NCBI GenBank assembly: GCA_028753945.1
Contig: JAPNXP010000007.1
Coordinates: 4,712,001 to 4,776,000, forward strand
Length of the DNA stretch: 64,000 nt
From: Hexactinellida sp. DTS-2022
Taxonomy: Eukaryota > Porifera > Hexactinellida
Reading direction: 5' to 3'
The translations under genes were made by a program, and so were the position numbers. Within the stretch, counting starts at the first letter, position 1. Each line of letters starts with the position of its first letter. Shown here one piece after another: positions 3,813 to 59,625 of this stretch. The notes beneath the pieces are model-generated. The model did no database searches and was not told the origin of the DNA. It was given only the letters and a program-made list of their open reading frames with translations.

Positions 3813-3942
3813 AATTGGATTTTTCCCTAAATAAATATGATATCCATATTACTTGTCTACTTATTTATTCATCCAATGTTATCTAGAAAAACTTCTTATG
3901 GAAATATAATTTTTCTATGGGTCTATGTTTTATAGTGCAAAT

Positions 3943-4177
3943 GTGATGACGGGCTGACAGGAGTGCACTAGAGGGATCCTAGTGTAGGTGGGTTATGCTT
4001 AGTACCTGTGGTAGGAGAACGGCATGGCTCACTGGTAACTAGAACTGGAGTAGGCCAGTTGTAGTGTGGTCGAGGGTTACCCTCCTGATGAGTCCTTGTG
4101 ATAGGACGAAACCACTTCCACCACATGTAGTATCCTGGTGGGTGTGAGATACATTTACGGTGTCTCATGCTCACCAC
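3943..4177 (+). mobile_element. Hammerhead-ribozyme repeat, unit A
   Basis: This is a 235-bp unit running from GTGATGACGGGCTGACAGG to GCTCACCAC. The same sequence occurs at 26476-26698 (deleted) and 26699-28021 (interrupted). Its termini form a short imperfect inverted repeat (GTGATGA and TCACCAC). Internally it has a tRNA-like box A candidate (TGGCTCACTGG at about 4025), a complete hammerhead ribozyme (4066-4115), and a hairpin near the 3' end (GAGATAC pairing with GTGTCTC). It has no open reading frame. It abuts the CGGCAACCCTG element end on its right. No clear target duplication is visible around this copy. It may be a ribozyme-bearing SINE or a retrozyme monomer. Confidence 0.75.
4066..4115 (+). 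ncRNA. Hammerhead ribozyme (type III topology)
   Basis: All conserved core parts are present in order: helix III 5' strand GTGG (4066-4069), the U and cleavage C at 4070-4071, helix I hairpin GAGGG-TTA-CCCTC (4072-4084), CTGATGA (4085-4091), helix II GTCCT-TGTGAT-AGGAC (4092-4107), GAAA (4108-4111), and helix III 3' strand CCAC (4112-4115). All helices pair without mismatches and the cleavage triplet is GUC. Predicted self-cleavage lies between 4071 and 4072. Helix III is the open helix, hence type III by topology. Activity is inferred from the consensus, not shown. Confidence 0.87.
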
Positions 4178-4315
4178 ATTTTGGAATTTTATTCCCACAT
4201 GTGGGAATCCTATGGGAATTCACACAGAAATCCTTTGGAAATGGGATGGGAATTAAAATTCCCTTCCCACGGCAACCCTGCTAGATAACCTCTCACATAA
4301 TCCATCAGTTGATCC

Positions 4316-13589: not shown

Positions 13590-14362
13590 ACTGGGTGTCC
13601 CCCGGAATGTGGTCCTAGGATAAGATGTCCCCGGACTTGTGGCCCTAGGATAAGATGTCCCCGGACTTGTGGTCTTAGGATAAGATGTCCCCGGACTTGT
13701 GGTCCTAGGATAAGATGTCCCCGGACTTGTGGCCCTAGGATAAGATGTCCCCGGACTTGTGGTCCTAGGATAAGATGTCTCCGACTCCCCGGACTTGTGG
13801 CCCTAGGATAAGATGTCCCCGGACTCGTGGCCCTAGGATAAGATGTCCCCGGACTCGTGGCCCTAGGATAAGAAGTCCCCGGACTCGTGGCCCTAGGATA
13901 AAATGTCCCCCGGACTTGTGGCCCTAAGATAAGAAGTCCCCGGACTTGTGGATCTAGGATAAGATGTCCCCTGGACTTGTGGCCCTAGGATAAGATGTCC
14001 CCTGGACTTGTGGCCCTAGGATAAGATGTCCCCCGGAATGTGACCCTAGGGTAAGATGTCCCCCGGAATGTGGCCCTAGGATAAGAAGTCCCCGGACTCG
14101 TGGCCCTAGGATAAAATGTCCCCCGGACTTGTGGCCCTAAGATAAGAAGTCCCCGGACTTGTGGATCTAGGATAAGATGTCCCCTGGACTTGTGGCCCTA
14201 GGATAAGATGTCCCCTGGACTTGTGGCCCTAGGGTAAGATGTCCCCCGGACTTGTGGCCCTAGGGTAAGATGTCCCCCGGACTTGTGGCCCTAAGATAAG
14301 ATGTCTCCCGGACTTGTGGCCCTAGGATAAGATGTCCCCCGGACTTGTGGCCCTAGGATAAG
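13590..14362. repeat. 30-31 bp GC-rich minisatellite, about 25 units, higher-order structure
   Basis: The consensus unit is GATAAGATGTCCCC plus GGACTTGTGGCCCTAG. Units vary by CCCC/CCCCC/CCCCT, ACTT/ACTC/AATG and GCCC/GTCC/GATC. A run of variants starting with GATAAGAAGTCCCCGGACTC occurs twice about 213 bp apart (around 13870 and 14085), showing a block duplication of about seven units. It is much more GC-rich than its neighbours. Confidence 0.95.
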
Positions 14363-16444: not shown

Positions 16445-16960
16445 TGGACCCTGGGTCAACATTGGTGACCCATGACCCATCTGACCCATCCCATTTCTGA
16501 CCCATGACCCATTGACCCATTGACCCATAACCCATCGAGTGACCCATTGACCATCACACAATTTTAAATATCTAAATACTATAGTGTAACATTAACAGAA
16601 TAACAGAATAACCGTTTAAATTACCTCAACAAACCTACTTGTTGGAATGTCGAATACGTTTAGTATTTCAATGCACATCAATGTTATAATAATATTGATG
16701 ATGATGAGTGAAACGTATTTTAACTGAAGATTACATTGAAATTCCACATGGGTCATGGGTCATGGGTCACGGAGCCGTGACCCATGACCCATCTGACCCA
16801 TCGATTTAGGTGACCCATCTGACCCATCGATTTAGGTGACCCATCTGACCCATCGATTTAGGTGACCCATCTGACCCATCGATTTAGGTGACCCATCTGA
16901 CCCATCGATTTAGGTGACCCATCTGACCCATGACCCATGACCCATCGACCCATGGTCCAC
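16445..16960. repeat. TGACCCAT tandem arrays flanking a unique spacer
   Basis: At 16445-16555 irregular CCCATTGACCCAT repeats occur. At 16790-16930 a regular 26-bp unit (TGACCCATCTGACCCATCG plus ATTTAGG) repeats about five times. At 16747-16775 the motif appears on the other strand (ATGGGTCATGGGTCACGG) just before the forward copies, giving a foldback. A roughly 190-bp spacer separates the two arrays. Confidence 0.9.
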
Positions 16961-17220: not shown

Positions 17221-20200
17221 ATGTCTGAATTCGCAGAATTAAGCGCGCTAATGGAATTATCCGAACAGCTAACCACTGATGAGATAATACAAATTCAAAC
17301 CGTTATCAAAATGCCAGAAGCATTATGCAAAGACGCGACCAAAGGAACTGATTTCCTAGCCGCAATCAAAAAATGGAAGCAGCACGATCCATACCTGTTG
17401 TATGTAGCACTAGAAGGCCTAAGACCTGATCTGACAGTAGTAGCCTGTGAGTTAACCTGGCTTTGTGTGTCGACACCAAACGAGTTCGAATTTGAAGAAA
17501 AGGAACTGAATATCAAGACACTAATTGATTTGTTAAAGTCTGAAATACCGCGTGATAAATGGGAGATGATATACATGGCGATTGCTCATGAGGCAATGGA
17601 GCAAGTGAACTTCGAAGTGACACTAAATAAAATGGTAGAAAAGGAGTACATACACAAAGACCTCACTCAGTTGTGTCAAATAATGAAAGTAATAAAAAGA
17701 GAGGACATTGTTGAGAAAATGAAGCCGTATCAGAAAGAATTCTCGGGAATGGAAGGCGGAGAGTTTGAAGCGAAATTCGCAAGAGAAGTTGGAATCCAAG
17801 GCAAAGAAATGAAACAATGGGAAGAGAAACTGAGAGACTTTTCCAAAAGTCAACATAGACAAGTAAAGCAAATGTTGGGCGATGACGAGTCAGTTAGTCT
17901 AGCGCATGTATATGTGGACCTTACAATCCTCAAACAAAAACCAAAGGAAATCGACATGGCTGATGAGACTACATACAACGAAATTGCGTACCTCAGGAAA
18001 ATCGCTAACAAAGAAGTGGAAATTGAACCAATTGATTTTAAAGAGGAATTAAACGCATATGAACAAAAGGAACCGGAAATTTGGTGCATCATAGGCAACC
18101 CAGGGTGTGGGAAAACATTTTTGATGAAGCGAACAGCTCTGAGATTTAGCAGCAGTGAATTAATCGGAATTAAATACTCCATCTCAATTCCTTGTCGGGA
18201 CACTGATTGGCATGTCATGGAGGCCACACGGTACGAAAACAAAATAGAAATTGAAAAGGAGTGCATCAGTAAGTGGCTGTGCCTGGGTTTACCAAAGGGA
18301 GCAAACTGGTCGAGTGATCTCGCTAAGCACCTCGCAGGCTCTGATGGAGAGGGACTCTTGATGATAATAGATGGACTGGACGAGTTTACTCGAAAGGTCC
18401 CATTTGAGAAAACGTTCCTCTGCTCATTACTAGCTCGTCAAACTCTAACAAAATCCACAATAATAATCACAAGTCGTCCCGGCGCATGGACAAGCATCTC
18501 TTCGCAAAATGACCTGAAAATTGACCGTTTTTATCATGTGCTTGGATTTTCGCCACAGAATCGAGATATCTATTTCCAAAAACAAATCACAAACATATCT
18601 AAACTGAAAGCGTGCATGGCTTTAATGGAGCGACATGACGAGATAAAGCAATTGGCCCTGATACCTGTAAACGCATCGCTCTTTGCCGCTCTGATGAAAG
18701 GAGAAGCTTCTGCCTCCATTAACACGATAACCAAGCTCTACTACGAACTGACACTGTACATGATCCGAAGGGAATTGACGAGAATGGGGCTGCAGCGGTT
18801 CTCCAGAGTCTCACAGATCTCAAACCTCCATCCCGACATACTGGCCTGCCTGCATAAGATAGGATTCATAGCATTGGTTGGTGTCGCCAACAGGGATCTA
18901 GTCTCGGAAGAGGATGTCACTCTCGTGTTGGAACAAGAAGAATATCCGTGTCAGTGCCTCGGTCTCGCACACGAGCACTACCGAAAGGAGTCCGTCGGCC
19001 TATTGAAAACAGTCTGGACATTTGTTCACCTGACAATGCAGGAATTCGTATCTGCCCTCTATTTAGAGCACACTAAATGGACTGAGCAGTGTTACAGTGC
19101 TAGATATATTTCCCACTCCATGGCTAACTTGTTCCTGTTCCGAATGGTGCTCAGGTTCCTCTGTGGACTCTTGTGTGATGAAGCAGCTGCTATTCTGTCC
19201 ATCTGTTACAGATACCTGACTCCTAAGCCCATCCAACTCATCGATATGCCTATGAGCTATCAACTCAAATACGAACCGTTATATCACCATGCAGCCTGGA
19301 ATGAATTAACGGAGATTTACATTCAATTATGTACAATTATTTATGAAACTACTTCCCTTTCAATTCCAACTTGGTTTGCCTATTTCCAAAGATTTTTTCC
19401 TAATCCGATTTACTTGTATGTACTACAAACCGTGTCTCCAAATGAGTGGATTTGCTTTGTACAGTCTCTCAAACATGCTGCTCAAATTCAACTGATTTAT
19501 ATCGACACTGATTTCATCAACCCCACTCAATTCAGCTCTTTAATACAGGAAATTAGGATTTGTTCGGTTAATTTATTTGCATTGAGCTTTTATCACAAAG
19601 ATTGTGCCACAGTCCTATCCTATACAGATATAATTATAGAGAAACGCATTACGTTTTATACCAAAATTAGTATTGAACTAAAATACTGTAATTTCCCTTT
19701 TGAGACAGCTGTTAATCTCTTCCCTACCACAGCCAATCAGATTATAACCTGCATGAGTCTAACCTCTAATCAATATTCATCTGAATTTCTTCAGGAATTA
19801 ACCAATCAGCTCTCTACTATCCAATGCTTATATGTTTGGGAATTTGGAACTATTTACGAGGCTCTCGAACCAGCCCTGTGTCAGGCGACACAATTAAGAG
19901 TATTACACCTCTATAAGATTCCTGCTAAACACATTCCTGCCCTAACAGCTGTGCTACCTCAGTTCTCCAAGCTACAAGAGATTGGATTCTATCAGGCCTC
20001 CCTGCTACCTGTAATATGTAACCTGTTAAACCTAACTTATATACGGATACAAGATTCTACTACAGAAGACACAACTCTCTATTCTTATCTCTTACATATT
20101 GTTAAACAGAACAGACACTCATTAAGAGGAATGCGGTTATTGTATTTGCATAGAATGGGTTTTATTAATTGGAGTTTACTTCTCAATAGTTTGGAACTTT

Positions 20201-20565
20201 GTACTAAGTTAGTTCATCTAAATCTATGGCGCATTACTCTACCAACTAATGACGTCACTCACTGGAGTAGAGCTGTTAACAAAATGGAGTCATTAGTTGA
20301 ATTGGATTTCTCTGAAGTCTCCCTCTATGACACAGGATTGTTATCTCTGTGCGAGGGTCTCATCTACCATCCTGCTATTAGGAGTCTACAGCTAATCTAC
20401 TGCGAGCTAACTTATCTATCCTGCGAGCCTCTGGCTAACCTAATCCCTACTGTCTCACAGCTGGAGACACTGGGAGTCGATGGACTATCTGAACCAGATG
20501 GAGATCTCATCTTGTTACTCAAGGAAACAGCTGATGAGTTCGCTATTGAGCTTTATTTGGATTAA
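17221..20565 (+). CDS. NLR-type protein: death-fold, NACHT and LRR regions
   Basis: A single 1114-codon exon starts at ATG 17221; no upstream in-frame alternative was seen. The N-terminal 280 residues are helical. Residues about 8-80 resemble a death-effector-like fold (pattern FLAAIKKWKQHDPYLL...LRPDL), and 105-172 resemble a second one (KEYIHKDLTQL...KREDIVEK). The NACHT NTPase follows, with Walker A GNPGCGKT (292-299), Walker B LLMIIDGLDEF (379-389) and the sensor-like STIIITSRP (412-420). The motif FVHLTMQEFVSALYL near residue 600 is typical of the helical region after NACHT in NLRs. Residues about 750-1100 contain divergent leucine-rich repeats. Such proteins act as cytosolic innate immune or death-signalling sensors that oligomerise on ligand binding. 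The lack of introns over 3.3 kb is notable. The death-fold subtype (DED, Death or CARD) is uncertain. Confidence 0.93.
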   Translation: MSEFAELSALMELSEQLTTDEIIQIQTVIKMPEALCKDATKGTDFLAAIKKWKQHDPYLLYVALEGLRPDLTVVACELTWLCVSTPNEFEFEEKELNIKTLIDLLKSEIPRDKWEMIYMAIAHEAMEQVNFEVTLNKMVEKEYIHKDLTQLCQIMKVIKREDIVEKMKPYQKEFSGMEGGEFEAKFAREVGIQGKEMKQWEEKLRDFSKSQHRQVKQMLGDDESVSLAHVYVDLTILKQKPKEIDMADETTYNEIAYLRKIANKEVEIEPIDFKEELNAYEQKEPEIWCIIGNPGCGKTFLMKRTALRFSSSELIGIKYSISIPCRDTDWHVMEATRYENKIEIEKECISKWLCLGLPKGANWSSDLAKHLAGSDGEGLLMIIDGLDEFTRKVPFEKTFLCSLLARQTLTKSTIIITSRPGAWTSISSQNDLKIDRFYHVLGFSPQNRDIYFQKQITNISKLKACMALMERHDEIKQLALIPVNASLFAALMKGEASASINTITKLYYELTLYMIRRELTRMGLQRFSRVSQISNLHPDILACLHKIGFIALVGVANRDLVSEEDVTLVLEQEEYPCQCLGLAHEHYRKESVGLLKTVWTFVHLTMQEFVSALYLEHTKWTEQCYSARYISHSMANLFLFRMVLRFLCGLLCDEAAAILSICYRYLTPKPIQLIDMPMSYQLKYEPLYHHAAWNELTEIYIQLCTIIYETTSLSIPTWFAYFQRFFPNPIYLYVLQTVSPNEWICFVQSLKHAAQIQLIYIDTDFINPTQFSSLIQEIRICSVNLFALSFYHKDCATVLSYTDIIIEKRITFYTKISIELKYCNFPFETAVNLFPTTANQIITCMSLTSNQYSSEFLQELTNQLSTIQCLYVWEFGTIYEALEPALCQATQLRVLHLYKIPAKHIPALTAVLPQFSKLQEIGFYQASLLPVICNLLNLTYIRIQDSTTEDTTLYSYLLHIVKQNRHSLRGMRLLYLHRMGFINWSLLLNSLELCTKLVHLNLWRITLPTNDVTHWSRAVNKMESLVELDFSEVSLYDTGLLSLCEGLIYHPAIRSLQLIYCELTYLSCEPLANLIPTVSQLETLGVDGLSEPDGDLILLLKETADEFAIELYLD

Positions 20566-22949: not shown

Positions 22950-23745
22950 TAAAAGTCAACTTCATCCTGAAAATATTACACCTTCTAAATCGGATAATTT
23001 TAGCTTTACGACGAAGTCTCATAAATCCTGTATCTCTGAGGAAATAGTACCGGATTATCGACCAGGAAATCTGCCTCGTCTTCCGTGTTGTCCTCATCAC
23101 AGTCGGGATTAGTTTTACACATTCGCTTACTAGATTGGAATTCATACCAAGCAGCAAGAAATGTTTCCTCTAATTCATCACGTCGTTGCATGTAGTGCTC
23201 AATTAAACCTTACAGAAGTATATCTACAGAATCCTGCTCCATACCCATTAGAACGGGTTTGGACTTGAGTATCCTAACCCGTTTATTAGCAGGATTGGTG
23301 TTAATGTAGACATTAGCTCTACTGCACTTAGAGAGAGGGAGACTGAGGAGATGATAAGAAACCTCCTGAGCTGATACCTCGCTACAGCTCTGAAACTTGT
23401 ATGCAATTCCCCTCAGTCTCTCTTTGATAGTGGCATTGCCTGCTTTCAGATGCATTAAGGCATCTCTCAACAACTTAGACATCCCACGCTGGGACTTTCG
23501 GATATACGAAATAACGTAAACAGCACAAGCACAAGCGTATGGATCCAATATGTATTGGAGATCCATATTAGCTTTCCAGAGAGATGAAGATAGTTCTTAT
23601 TATGAGCATTGATTCGTACCTCATTCAGATTTCGTTTCAGAAATATAGTTGGTCTATTATACAAGATCTCAATGCAGTTATGTATTGCTCTTCGGAATTT
23701 GACCCGACCCGACCGGCCGGTCGACCGATCATTCATAGCTAGCAA
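22950..23745 (-). pseudogene. Helitron replicase-helicase fragment
   Basis: Minus-strand frames match the region before the helicase of Helitron proteins. The NEVRIN...YN block (near 23620) leads to LDPYACA, YVISYIRKSQRGMSKLL and then SCSEVSAQEVSYHLLSLPLS with SR..VYINT (23566 down to 23210). A following acidic frame (23191-23006) may continue the protein. The frame is broken near 23570 and again near 23200. The block DPYACACAVY carries two extra residues compared with the usual DPYACAVY pattern. Neither the HUH motif nor the Walker motifs of the helicase are present, so only a fragment survives. Confidence 0.75.
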
Positions 23746-25946
23746 TAATTTATAAATAATAGAATAAGAATCTACTGTAGTGTCATGTCATATATTTAGG
23801 AATAAATATTATGGCCATAGACCATTTAAGGAAGCCTCCTTTAAGACTAAGCTCTCAAGGGCTATTGGAGTCAGATTCAATCAAAACAAATTATGATATT
23901 ATGAAATCGAATAGATCATATAGAGATCTCGACCGGCCGGTCAAGGTTCCGACCGGTACCCGACCCGACCCGACGGTTCCGTCTCTGATCAAAGAACACC
24001 ACATCTCTTGGTCTGGAAGTTAGGTTTATGGGAACCAACTCTTCTTTTGTTTTAATCCAGCTTTAATTCTTCAAACATGTCAGACAACAGCTGCAAAACC
24101 TTTCGACGTCTGCTTTCATGCCTCTCCAATAAAATTTGTCTCGCTGGAGAAGAGTGATTTTTCGACACCAAAATGTCCTTCGTTGTGCACTTCACGTAAT
24201 ATTTCTTGTCTCATCGCTGAAGGAACAATTATCTTGCGTCCCATATACAGTAGTCCATGTTCAATAGATATGCCAAAGCATTTTTTAAACTGGCTTTCCG
24301 AGATTGTTCCTGTTTCTCTAAGTTGTTTCATCCCCCCAAGCTATAAACGTGTCTCTCGAAATATTCTGTTTCATTCTTTATATCTTCGTCGATTTCTGAG
24401 TGGATCCTTGAGAGGCAGTCCGCGGCAAACATTATTCTTTCCTCTGACGAGTCGACCCTATAATTAAAAGTTTATAATTCCTGTACCCAACGCATAAATT
24501 TTCCCCGAGTATCTCTCTGCTTTCTTAACCATAATTTAAGGGTTGTAGTCAGATAGGAATGTTACACCTGGAGCTGCCTGTAGATACTTCTGGAACTTCC
24601 TCCTGGAAGCGACAAGTGCCCAAACTCTAATTCTCCAGCCGAATAGCTCTTTTGAGCTGGGGTGAGGTCGAAAGAAAAATACGAAATGGGCTTGAGGTTT
24701 CCTCATTTTTTTTCTGAGATAAAACGGTACCAACTGCAACGGATGAAGCATCTGTCTGTACTCTTTTCCAGTTAGGGTATGCTAAAACAACAGGGCTCTC
24801 AGTATGGTTTTTCTTCAGCGATTGATACGCTTTATCAGCTATGTTATCTCATTCCCATAATTGATCTTTTTGTATCAGGCTGTAGAGAGGCTCGGCCATT
24901 CGCGCATAAGTTATATAAGTTATATAAGTTATATAATATATATATATATATGATATATCCCGCACATGATCCCTGTAAAATTTACACAGTCCCAAAAATC
25001 TTTGTAATTCCTTTTTCCCATTAGGTGGTTGAGCATTGCGAACCTTCTCAAGAAGGTGCGGTGTTGGACAATGCACTCTGTTTGATATTATGCGCCTAGG
25101 AATTCTACTTTCTGATAACCAAAGTTACACTGTTCTAACCGAAGTTGGATGTTCGCCTTTTCTAAAGCCTGAAACACTGATTCTACATCTTCAAGGTGCT
25201 GTTAGAATGTAGCAGAATGAATGCAAATATCGTCTATGTAGGGATCGACGCGGTTGGCATCCTTAAAGGTGGTATCCATGAGACATTGATAACTAGACTG
25301 ACTATACACAAGGACAAATGGCATTCTATTCATTTCAAACAGCCCTTTGGAGCAAACGAAGGCCGTTTTGTGTCGACAAGTCTAATGTGGTGAAATATTC
25401 AGCTCCGCTTAGCCGATCCAAAATGTCTCCATGGTTGGGCATTGGGTAACTATCAGTCTGAGTCTCTCTATTCAAAGGACGGTAATCAACGACGAATCTT
25501 TTCGAGCCATCCCGTTTGCTGACTAACAGAACCCTACTCGCCCAGGGCGAGTCTGATGGCAGACAAATTCCATAACGGAGAATCTGCTCTATTTGTTCGT
25601 CGATTTCCTTCTCGATTTCTGGGCTTACAGGATATGGTATCTGTTTAATTGGTTGTGCATCTTTGGTAACGATCCGGTGTTTCATTCCAACGGCTGGACT
25701 GGGTTTCTTGGGATTGATAGCGAAGGTTTTTAGGTATTTGTTCAGCAGTACTTCCGTTAATAATCGCTCTTGTTGGGACAATTTCACATCAATGTTGAAG
25801 TGCGGGTGGGAATCCGGGATCGATTGATCTGAGTCTGAGTTTTATAAGGTAGCTACACTTGCTCGTGATAGTGGTTTGCCTCCTTCAACAATCACATGTG
25901 GAGTCTTCCAAACTTGACCCAGACGTACTTGATTCTTGAACCAACA

Positions 25947-26344
25947 TACTTGCCAACCTATAGTAAATATTTGGCGGGACGGAGGAATTAATTTTGGCGG
26001 GACATAAGGAAGTTTGGCGGGACAAAGAACATTAGTACATAAATAAGTGAAGTAGTGTTACTATTTGTACGGATGTCCTAGTAATTGTAATAATTTTATT
26101 ATCTCAACGGAAGGAACCTTGCTCCAATTGCATAAAACGAGACGTCCCGTCAAAAAAACGGGACGCTAGTCAATTATACAGATTTATTACCTAATTGGAA
26201 GAAGCAATGCTCAGATCTTTATATTTTATTGTTATTGTCACAAAAATGAAATACAGGGTACAAAAAGCGGGACAAACGTGTCTAAAAGCGGGACGCGGGA
26301 CAATTCACAAAATCTTTGCCAAAAATCGGGACTGTTGGCAAGTA
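25947..26344. mobile_element. TIR element inside gypsy remnant (TACTTGCCAACC ends)
   Basis: Ends TACTTGCCAACCTATAG and CTGTTGGCAAGTA are inverted. The interior carries many GGCGGGAC/AAAGCGGGAC motifs in both halves. It interrupts the gypsy protease-RT interval. No target duplication beyond TA is evident. Confidence 0.65.
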
Positions 26345-26540
26345 TGGACCAATTGAACTCAGTCGTGCCAAATTTCTTCAGGAAATTTCGTCCTAATATG
26401 CAGGTGGGCTCGGTTTCGGAAAGAACTTCGAAGGTGTGTTCTATCACTTGATCGTCGCCTAAGTCGACTACTAGTGTGATGACGGGCTGACAGGAGTGCA
26501 CTAGAGGGATCCTAGTGTAGGTGGGTTGTGCTTAGTACCT

Positions 26541-26558
26541 GTGATAGGACGAAACCAC
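26541..26558 (+). ncRNA. Hammerhead remnant in unit B (deleted core)
   Basis: Only the 3' strand of helix II, GAAA and CCAC remain (ATAGGACGAAACCAC). The CTGATGA, helix I and cleavage site are gone. The junction lies where GTGGTAGG and GTGATAGG resemble each other in the full unit, suggesting deletion by microhomology. Confidence 0.8.
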
Positions 26559-26821
26559 TTCCACTAAGTAAGAGATCCCAAACCTTATGATGTGGTGGTA
26601 AGACCTTGCAGGCTTTGAGGGCTTGAGGCAGGTGCTGCAAGCATTGCAGGCTTGGCACCGAAGTGGTCAGCCCAGGTACCTATGGAAGGGAACCTGATGT
26701 GATGACGGGCTGACAGGAGTGCACTAGAGGGATCCTAGTGTAGGTGGGTTGTGCTTAGTACCTGTGGTAGGAGAACGGCATGGCTCACTGGTAACTAGAA
26801 CTGGAGTAGACCAGTTGTAGT

Positions 26822-26871
26822 GTGGTCGAGGATTACCCTCCTGATGAGTCCTTGTGATAGGACGAAACCAC
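26822..26871 (+). ncRNA. Hammerhead ribozyme in unit C
   Basis: The core is as in unit A: GTGG, U, cleavage C at 26827, CTGATGA (26841-26847), helix II GTCCT-TGTGAT-AGGAC, GAAA and CCAC. Helix I is GAGGA-TTA-CCCTC, with one A-C mismatch next to the triloop compared with unit A. Conserved core residues are otherwise intact. Confidence 0.85.
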
Positions 26872-26904
26872 TTCCACCACATGTCGTATCCCGGTGGGTG
26901 TGAG

Positions 26905-27985
26905 CATGGCCTACTTAATATACGGCTATATATGTCGCCGAGAAGGCCATAAAATAAAGAGGCCAGTTTCTAATTTTTAAAATGGAGAATTGATCTTTAT
27001 TCGAATAATTAGCAATGATATAGCTGAAAAGTGTATTATAACTATATAGGAATATGGTATCCAGGTATACATAGCACCCTCCAGAATTGTGATATGTCAT
27101 CATCTGATGACGTTATGGTTATTTTGGTTGCGAATTATCTTGTTTTTCTAGCATACTTTTAACATAGTTAAACGCGTTATAAATGTTCAAAATTGGAACA
27201 TGGTTATACCCAGAAGTAGTAGAATAAAATATATCGAAATTATAAATGGAATGTTGACACATTCCTCGGTTGCCATGGAAAATGTATATTTCCTAAAATG
27301 TGCCATAACTCAAAAACTATGAATGTTATGTAAACTAGGCTAGTACTGATCTGTCCGGAATAGGTAACTTACTATTCATCGATAATACATTTTCTATGCC
27401 TAACTTCAATAATCTTTGAGATAGTGAGTCATTACCTAATAATGAATTAAGTGTTAATTATCTCATTATCTCAAAAATTAGTGAAGTTAGATATATAAAA
27501 TGTATTATCGATGAATAGGAAGTTACCTATTCCGGACAGATCAGTACCAGACTAGTTTACACAACATTCATAGTTTTTGAGTTATGGCACATTTTAGGAA
27601 ATATACATTTTCCATGGCAACCGAGGAATGTGTCAACATTCCATTTATAATTTCGATATATTTTATTCTACTACTTCTGGGTATAAACATGTTCCAATTT
27701 TGAACATTTATAACGCGTTTAACTATGTTAAAAGTATGCTAGAAAAACAAGATAATTCGCAACCAAACTAACCATAACGTCATCAGATGATGACATATCA
27801 CAATTCTGGAGGGTGCTATGTATACCTGGATACCATATTCCTATATAGTTATAATACACTTTTCAGCTCTATCATTGCTAATTAATCGAATAAAGATCAA
27901 TTCTCCATTTTGAAAATTAGAAACTGGCCTCTTTGTTTTATGGCCTTCTCGGCGACATATATAGCCGTATATTAAGTAGGCCATG
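26905..27985. mobile_element. Near-perfect 1.08-kb palindromic (foldback) element
   Basis: The left arm from CATGGCCTACTTAATATACG and the right arm ending CGTATATTAAGTAGGCCATG are reverse complements over roughly 500 bp each with few mismatches, around a short loop near 27440. The element is flanked by GTGTGAG on both sides (26898-26904, 27986-27992), a 7-bp duplication of ribozyme-repeat sequence. The terminal sequence is shared with the element at 42754-43535. It has no coding capacity. Confidence 0.9.
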
Positions 27986-28189
27986 GTGTGAGATACATTT
28001 ACGGTGTCTCATGCTCACCACACTAGTTTAAGGCTACCTATCAACTTTTACTGGTTCGTGAGACAGGGCATAGAGTTCGATTTCTCCGACTTCCATATAT
28101 TGATCAAATCTCATATCGCGTAATTTTCCTACATCAATAACAGAAGGTCCAGCACTGTAAACCTCTTAACTTCTATGATGCATTGTTTA

Positions 28190-58265: not shown

Positions 58266-58884
58266 TTATTGAATCCACCTTAGGGACATTCATAATTCAT
58301 ATGTCTGGGCGTGGGAATTTGCAATTTCCCTTCCTGACCAAGTGGTTTAGAGGTTAAGTATTCGGAAATTTTTGGTGTCAAATTGAAATTGAAGTATTTC
58401 CTCTCAATATTCAACAAGGGAAGCCGGGTCGAAAGCGTTTGATATATTTGCTTGCCCGGATATTGGGAGAGGGCTAATCAGATGAGTCCTCAATGGTTTG
58501 TTGGAAACTAGTATTAATAATTAGAAATTGAGAAAAAATTCTCATTTTGTTGGATTGGTAGGCCAGTGCCTGTACTTCCGCCCTGACTAATAGGGTTGAT
58601 CAGAAATTGGAAGTTGTACTGTTCAGAAATCAATGTCCGAACAAGTACGCGTACAACTATAGTATTGTACCGGAATATTATGACGAGTGTGAAGTTAGCA
58701 GCGAAATCAGCAGCGAAATCCGAGCACACTTATGTAGCTAATAAAATGGAAACTAGAACAAATATCAATTAGTCCTTCAAGATTAATGGAGCCTACATGT
58801 GGTACATTGGCCCATTAAATTTTCAAAACATTTGGAGATTGGGTCACCCCATGATGAGTTTGCAAAAAGGGTCATTTTTTTCGA

Positions 58885-59625
58885 ATTTTGGCATGTAATT
58901 CTATACTGAGCACACTTTTTAACGTTATACAATGCAAACCAAGTCACTTATATAGTTCTCCTTTGGCACACTTTGAGGCTAGTAGCGGTATATTAGCTCA
59001 GGAAATTTTCAAACTTATCCGAGACCTGTTTATGCCAAGATGACTTTGCATAAAATTTGTATATTCATAAAATTTTTGCATTTAAGTTCTATACTGAGCA
59101 CACTTGTTAACGTTATACAATGCAAACCAAGTCACTTATATAGTTCTCCTTTGGCACACTTTGAGGCTAGTAGCGGTATATAAGCTCAGGAAATTTTCAA
59201 ACTTATCCGAGATCTGTTTATGCCAAGATGACTTTGCATAAAATTTGTATATTCATAAAATTTTTGCATTTAAGTTCTATACTGAGCACACTTGTTAACG
59301 TTATACAATGCAAACCAAGTCACTTATATAGTTCTCCTTTGGCACACTTTGAGGCTAGTAGCGGTATATTAGCTCAGAAAATTTTCAAACTTATCCGAGA
59401 TCTGTTTATGCCAAGATGACTTTGCATAAAATTTGTATATTCATAAAAATTTGGCATTTAAGTTCTATACTGAGCACACTTGTTAACGTTATACAATGCA
59501 AACCAAGTCACTTATATAGTTCTCCTTTGGCACACTTTGAGGCTAGTAGCGGTATATTAGCTCAGGAAATTTTCAAACTTATCCGAGATCTGCTTATGCC
59601 ATGATGACTTTGCTGACACATGTCT
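58885..59625 (+). repeat. 188-bp satellite, about four units
   Basis: The motif CTATACTGAGCACAC occurs at 58901, 59089, 59277 and 59465, an exact 188-bp period. Units differ by a few bases. The 62-codon frames in two units are repeats of each other without domains. The first unit joins sequence shared with 42425-42480 (GTGTGAAGTTAGCAGCGA). Confidence 0.95.

Follow-up and report, generated by a model that had tools for sequence, protein, structure and literature searches.

The window (the whole stretch of DNA that was analysed, 64,000 nucleotides) carries on its forward strand a solo LTR with a hammerhead motif and, further downstream, a second and larger element with another hammerhead in its 3′ LTR. 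The features referred to in the text are the following:

3942..4178 (+): family-A solo LTR of 237 bp, TG...CA, TGTGATGACG...CTCACCACA, with the hammerhead; copies elsewhere in the genome
4064..4117 (+): type III hammerhead (Rfam score, MFE fold, covariation in helices II and III)
4066-4070/4111-4115 (+): helix III, the open helix
4071 (+): C17; predicted cleavage at 4071/4072
4072-4076/4080-4084 (+; 4072..4084): helix I, 5 bp, with triloop UUA (Rfam match, fold)
4085-4091 and 4108-4110 (+): hammerhead core
4092-4096/4103-4107 (+; 4092..4107): helix II, 5 bp, with a 6-nt loop (covariation alignment)
4136..4176 (+): predicted 17-bp hairpin on the U5 side, where the LTR has its 3′ end; z -3.0 for the fold of the whole LTR
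26475..28022 (+): second putative retrozyme, LTR-body-LTR, with CTAG / CTAG flanks, interrupted by a transposon-like insert at 26905-27984
26475..26564 (+): 5′ LTR of the second element, internally deleted, its first 75 bp being directly followed by the 3′ portion of the hammerhead
26565..26697 (+): body of the second element, 133 bp; the polypurine stretch GGAAGGGAACCTGA (26684-26697) abuts the 3′ LTR
26698..26904 (+): initial part of the second element's 3′ LTR, with the hammerhead at 26820-26873
27985..28022 (+): remainder of the second element's 3′ LTR, shifted away from the initial part by the insert

The motif at 4064-4117 (+) matched the Rfam covariance model of the type III hammerhead (RF00008) with 58.3 bits and E 2.2e-10, the gathering score of this model being 48.5 bits; a second match above that score, of 52.7 bits, was obtained in the window at 26820-26873 (+). 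The first-pass annotation had described a complete hammerhead at 4066..4115, with its three helices, core and GUC triplet, an open helix III in the type III arrangement and a cleavage position between 4071 and 4072. All of this holds: the score is over the gathering threshold, the core is conserved, helix III is open, and C17 is at 4071. When the 54 nt of 4064-4117 were folded in isolation, the MFE and centroid structures were both the hammerhead, with an energy only modestly below that of shuffled sequences (z -1.7; 9 of 200 shuffles equal or lower); in the fold of the whole LTR RNA, other pairings win over the hammerhead. The type I model (RF00163) gave no matches, in a search whose controls also gave none, and an exact 21-base piece of the motif gave no matches in viral contigs. 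By sequence and predicted fold, 4064-4117 is confirmed as a genuine, complete type III hammerhead, which would be expected to cleave itself.

The motif is abundant in the genome. The pattern GTC-N10-20-CTGATGAGTCC-N8-GGACGAAAC was found at 172 places of the 112.4-Mb genome, and a version that did not require GTC and allowed a looser loop at 192, the reversed pattern giving 0 in each case. A genome scan with RF00008 scored 68 places, 64 of them over the cut-off, out of 12,319 first-look candidates, so that the size of the family is at least this. C1:12.9-13.9 Mb contains ten hammerheads of a single type, nine of which share one strand and most of which are separated by tens of kb; a large duplicated segment that includes one copy may account for them.

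Concerning conservation, the 13 core bases tested were all intact in 31 of the 34 family-A LTR copies spanning the motif (33 of them taken from the LTR-similarity list, on which 9 other motif-spanning places were left out), so that damage to the core in most genomic copies, which the first-pass annotation had named as an argument against a ribozyme, is not the case. The ribozyme is conserved over its surroundings: in 33 copies compared with the window copy (excluding L042, of another family, which matches over the ribozyme only), 15 of 1650 positions differed inside it against 253 of 5775 outside, and in the 7 copies of less than 95% identity the differences were 5/350 inside and 141/1061 outside. 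The p-values of this comparison are just a guide, because the copies share ancestry and are not independent.

Covariation was analysed on 40 distinct ribozymes, from the set of 81 copies less 7 whose spacing or triplet was unusual. Paired cells made up 91.0% of this alignment; in controls in which the partner column was shifted by 1 to 3 positions, pairing fell to 44-66%. Two-sided changes were found at 7 pairs, a number reached by 2 of 500 shuffles, and the covariation score was 0.142 against 0.086 for the shuffles, none of the 500 reaching it. These changes were located in helices II and III; the fifth pair of helix II was C-G in 23 copies, U-A in 16 and U-G in 1, and the two outermost pairs of helix III were unpaired in 31/40 and 21/40 copies. 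Helix I had 98.0% of its cells paired and zero two-sided changes among the same 40 copies. Clustering on the sequence upstream of the ribozyme divided the 81 copies into 20 clusters, and among 19 cluster representatives the agreement was 0.91 in helix I, a value fixed in part by how the copies were gathered, versus 0.27 and 0.34 in the flanks. Core conservation in the cluster and covariation sets is by construction, since the copies were partly gathered by the core pattern.

The repeat that carries the motif has many copies, as the first-pass annotation held in calling it interspersed; its class, which had gone unrecognised, is that of an LTR, with TG...CA ends and 4-bp duplications. Family-A copies elsewhere in the genome are 99.6 to 85% identical to 3942-4178. 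The LTR of family B is 325 bp long (TGTGACGAGT...CATCTCATAACA), and a DNA search with it gave at least 50 matches, with 40 of 392 candidates scored. Target duplications were studied in 46 units obtained from 81 core copies, the remaining 35 having been dropped where the end motifs missed one or both ends. Exact 4-bp duplications flanked 20 of the 46 (12/26 among family-A-type units), compared to a mean of 0.71 and a maximum of 6 in 5000 partner shuffles; 5-bp matches were found in 0/46 and 3-bp matches in 2/46, one of these a poly-T unit that also matched at 4 bp. The other 26 units had no exact 4-bp duplication, some of them because they are located inside composites, and the window copy 3942-4178 has none, its flanks being caaa / tttt. 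The GC content of the LTR elements is 51-52%, versus 37% for the window. As the repeat is an LTR, the arrangement is that of an LTR retrozyme and not of a SINE, a PLE or a tandem repeat. Solo LTRs such as 3942-4178 would be left by LTR-LTR recombination or by the insertion of a single LTR.

Complete elements showed the layout of LTR retrozymes, with direct LTRs that contain the type III hammerhead placed around a body of 131-161 bp, and with a polypurine tract; judged from that length alone, the bodies are without coding capacity. In L052 a 161-bp body lies between two 325-bp LTRs that differ from each other at 1 base, with a hammerhead-to-hammerhead distance of 486 nt; L056 and L084 have hammerhead units of 385 nt, and L063, of family A, has a 311-nt unit with one hammerhead core, that of the 5′ LTR, mutated. 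Two hammerheads over threshold were found within a single element in L052 and L084; L056 has one over threshold and another with an exact core, and in the window element 26475-28022 the core is deleted in the 5′ LTR. The U5 part is missing from the 5′ LTR in four of the five LTR-body-LTR elements (L063, L056, L084 and the window copy). A 5′ LTR that ends soon after the hammerhead was observed in L056, L084, L063, L061 and the window copy at 26475, the last three having an identical junction, and suggests either a derived subfamily or a template-switch product. Counting ten named composites, with pairs such as L018/L023, L036 and L085 left out, exact 4-bp duplications were present in 7/9 plus the window element (8/10), and absent from L059 and L012. 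L046 is a tandem dimer. The 1,080-bp insert at 26905-27984, within the 3′ LTR of the second element, has terminal inverted repeats (CATGGCCTACTTAATATACGGC...) and is flanked by the 8-bp duplication GGTGTGAG (26897-26904, 27985-27992); it looks like a DNA transposon.

The polypurine tract and the 5′ end of the LTR resemble those of host Ty3/gypsy elements, as in known LTR retrozymes. The pattern of both in L052 occurs at 10 genome places (reversed control, 0), 3 of which are L052 itself. Six of the other seven (L075, L077-L081; not L076) directly follow gypsy-like pol frames recognised by eye, and Pfam found the integrase core domain in 2 of 3 submitted translations (L075 and L080), with no match for that of L077. 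The LTR pieces of eight gypsy loci contained no hammerhead, even at E 0.5. One gypsy family (L079, L080, L082, L083) has a primer site, TAAATACTAATAGTTTTG, that is complementary to CAAAACTTATTAGTATTT of its own LTR, a complementarity attained by shuffles in 0/1000 cases for L080 and 1/1000 for L079; complementarity to the own 5′ LTR had p 0.005 in L082 and p 0.035 in L083. When up to 3 mismatches were allowed, the site pattern of TAAATACTAATAGTTTTG gave 6 places, including 2 exact ones, and its reversed control gave 0. This host family appears to be self-primed, in the manner of LTR retrotransposons of the Tf1/Tj1 type, described as having a primer site that complements their own LTR (PMC4600332). 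Broken Ty3/gypsy-like remains also occupy ~23200-26530 (-) of the window, with the second element at their edge; an RT-like frame at 25335-25841 (-), without Pfam match, and a protease-like frame at 26238-26531 (-) were recognised there by eye.

The hammerhead elements differ in this respect. Inspection of three families after the LTR showed no tRNA-Met primer site, the sequence starting with TAATAAC, TCATAAC or TTATAAC, not with TGG. The post-LTR region was not complementary to the own LTR in family B (p 0.64) or in family A (p 0.40), unlike in Tf1/Tj1 (PMC4600332), and at that place there is instead a local hairpin. It lies directly 3′ of the LTR, with z -7.6 in L052, where it includes the LTR end, and z -3.6 in L064. 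The inverted double copies L026, L052 and L061 have a hairpin at or near their centre, and L085 has the same hairpin centre; no hairpin was found at the junction of L059. Among five inverted pairs tested, 4-bp duplications flanked the same three (L026, L052 and L061) and not L059 or L012. We infer self-priming from the fact that these central hairpins are such as fold-back synthesis would give. This suggests that the retrozyme is primed by the post-LTR hairpin and not by a tRNA, though there are other routes to fold-back DNA.

With a probability of about 0.83, the motif can be interpreted as the ribozyme of an LTR retrozyme, that is, of a miniature non-coding LTR retrotransposon moved in trans by the Ty3/gypsy elements of its host. 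The motif, its covariation, the LTR anatomy, the duplications and the box shared with gypsy are direct observations on which the following sequence of events would build. An LTR-body-LTR copy would be transcribed, and its two hammerheads would cut the RNA, freeing a unit of ~311 to 486 nt, the lengths observed, with 5′-OH and cyclic phosphate ends. A tRNA ligase would probably close the circle, as the literature on plant and animal retrozymes leads one to expect. The gypsy reverse transcriptase may then copy this circle by way of the shared polypurine tract and LTR start, for which the sequence match is observed, and the gypsy integrase would presumably insert the resulting TG...CA-ended DNA with the 4-bp duplications seen in the genome; mobilisation is, in all likelihood, due to gypsy elements. 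The least certain step is priming, which could occur from the hairpin just after the LTR instead of from a tRNA. That the copies form an animal LTR-retrozyme lineage whose circular RNA is hairpin-self-primed, and in which an unremoved primer would lead to fold-back and thus to inverted double insertions, is offered tentatively, being rather doubtful as a whole.

It could be argued that the ribozyme is only a passenger of a non-autonomous, TRIM-like gypsy LTR, the hammerhead being dispensable or trimming readthrough transcripts. Many copies are indeed solo LTRs and the gypsy pieces examined have no ribozyme; nevertheless, the ribozyme is common to LTR families with unlike flanks (20 flank clusters, 81 copies), its helix I agrees far better than those flanks do (partly, as said, through copy gathering), and 31/34 cores are intact, so that we regard a passenger as unlikely. 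Somewhat less probable still is a MITE, i.e. a cut-and-paste DNA transposon with short inverted ends TGTGRTGA that carries the hammerhead by chance. The two ends of the LTR do form short inverted repeats, and the 4-bp duplications at 3/5 inverted double copies (L026, L052, L061) would be accommodated, since inverted dimers would move as units if a transposase saw two outer ends. Against a MITE speak the direct-repeat LTR-body-LTR elements with polypurine tracts, the tandem dimer L046 and the box common to retrozymes and gypsy pol ends, as well as the consideration that a ribozyme matters only if a transcript is made.

It is very improbable that the repeat is a SINE, a Penelope-linked repeat or one of the usual non-LTR retrozymes of metazoans, mobilised by a LINE or PLE. 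The short units (237 to 325 bp), sometimes in tandem (L046), and the animal host would suit such an element, but the hammerhead is type III and not type I, the duplications are of 4 bp and not longer, the ends are TG...CA, LTRs, a polypurine tract and the gypsy box are present, and GC exceeds 50%. Two narrower candidates were also considered and dropped: a SINE with a pol III box, on account of an A-box-like stretch near 4026, was rejected on the TG...CA ends and 4-bp duplications, and Penelope pseudo-LTRs, suggested by the inverted pairs, on the duplications of exactly 4 bp and the gypsy-like polypurine box. ARAGORN found no tRNA genes in the window.

The LTR retrozyme favoured here belongs to an animal genome, as judged from protein domain matches. 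A SMAD MH2 domain (1.9e-66) and a TGF-beta domain (4.8e-27), which we take to be animal-specific, were found in the genome, and the window has reading frames in which Pfam recognised NACHT, FN3 and VWA domains; a Wnt search gave no matches, nor did its controls. As the element has matches on all 18 contigs, contamination by plant DNA is unlikely. The window also contains a long NACHT-domain, NLR-like reading frame (17221-20565) and tandem arrays at 13596-14362 (30-bp unit x 25), 16785-16931 (26-bp unit x 5.7, 100%) and 58884-59613 (188-bp unit x 3.9, 97%).

On this evidence, the presence in an animal of LTR retrozymes with type III hammerheads, a form known from plants, would be new; no report of an animal LTR retrozyme was found in the open-access literature, and paywalled or unpublished reports may exist. 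According to the accessible text of a 2024 review, metazoan retrozymes are non-LTR with type I, LTR plus type III being the plant form (PMC11722881), and a 2011 survey considered that repeat propagation in eukaryotes possibly needs type I (PMC3088659). The genome studied here breaks that split. It makes testable the idea that ribozyme type tracks the mobilising machinery (type III with LTR/gypsy, type I with LINE or PLE) and not the host kingdom, and it offers an animal system where self-priming, the gypsy reverse transcriptase and viroid-like circles could be studied side by side. Transposons with a self-cleaving circular RNA may be commoner across organisms than assumed and, if the self-primed animal lineage were true, type III plus Ty3/gypsy would be a recurrent or ancient cross-kingdom partnership, plants included.

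Concerning other hammerhead systems, the first-pass view that type III would be unusual in an animal repeat agrees with the sources as far as available, according to which the hammerheads of animal repeats are mostly of type I (PMC7229834, PMC11722881, PMC3088659). Type III is not unprecedented in animals, isolated or atypical motifs having been reported: isolated extended ones in termites, flies and delta-like agents (PMC7936874), and the atypical mammalian Clec2 motif (PMC6155905). The insect and delta-like motifs share with ours the type III form in animals or their agents, but, as described, they have long helices and a loop pseudoknot in place of a short triloop form, and those of termites are isolated, not part of an abundant LTR (PMC7936874). 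Metazoan non-LTR retrozymes resemble the present elements in their animal host, in units of a few hundred nt and in the circular RNA, known for them and presumed here; as described, they differ in being tandem repeats with hammerheads of type I, a GC content under 50% and longer duplications, without LTR, primer site or polypurine tract (PMC7229834).

The comparison with plant LTR retrozymes (PMC4918200, PMC11722881) includes several differences. The host here is an animal, the LTR measures 237-325 bp versus 300-400, the hammerhead-to-hammerhead unit 311-486 nt versus 400-1000, and GC is 51-52% versus >55% (PMC7229834); the plant elements have a tRNA-Met primer site, whereas none was seen here, where the LTR is followed by a hairpin. 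No mention of inverted double insertions, which are present here, was met in the accessible text of those two sources. In other respects the elements are alike: both have a type III hammerhead in LTRs around a short enzyme-free body, isolated hammerheads in copies roughly as long as an LTR, duplications of 4 bp, and a polypurine tract and LTR start that resemble those of the host Ty3/gypsy elements (PMC4918200, PMC11722881).
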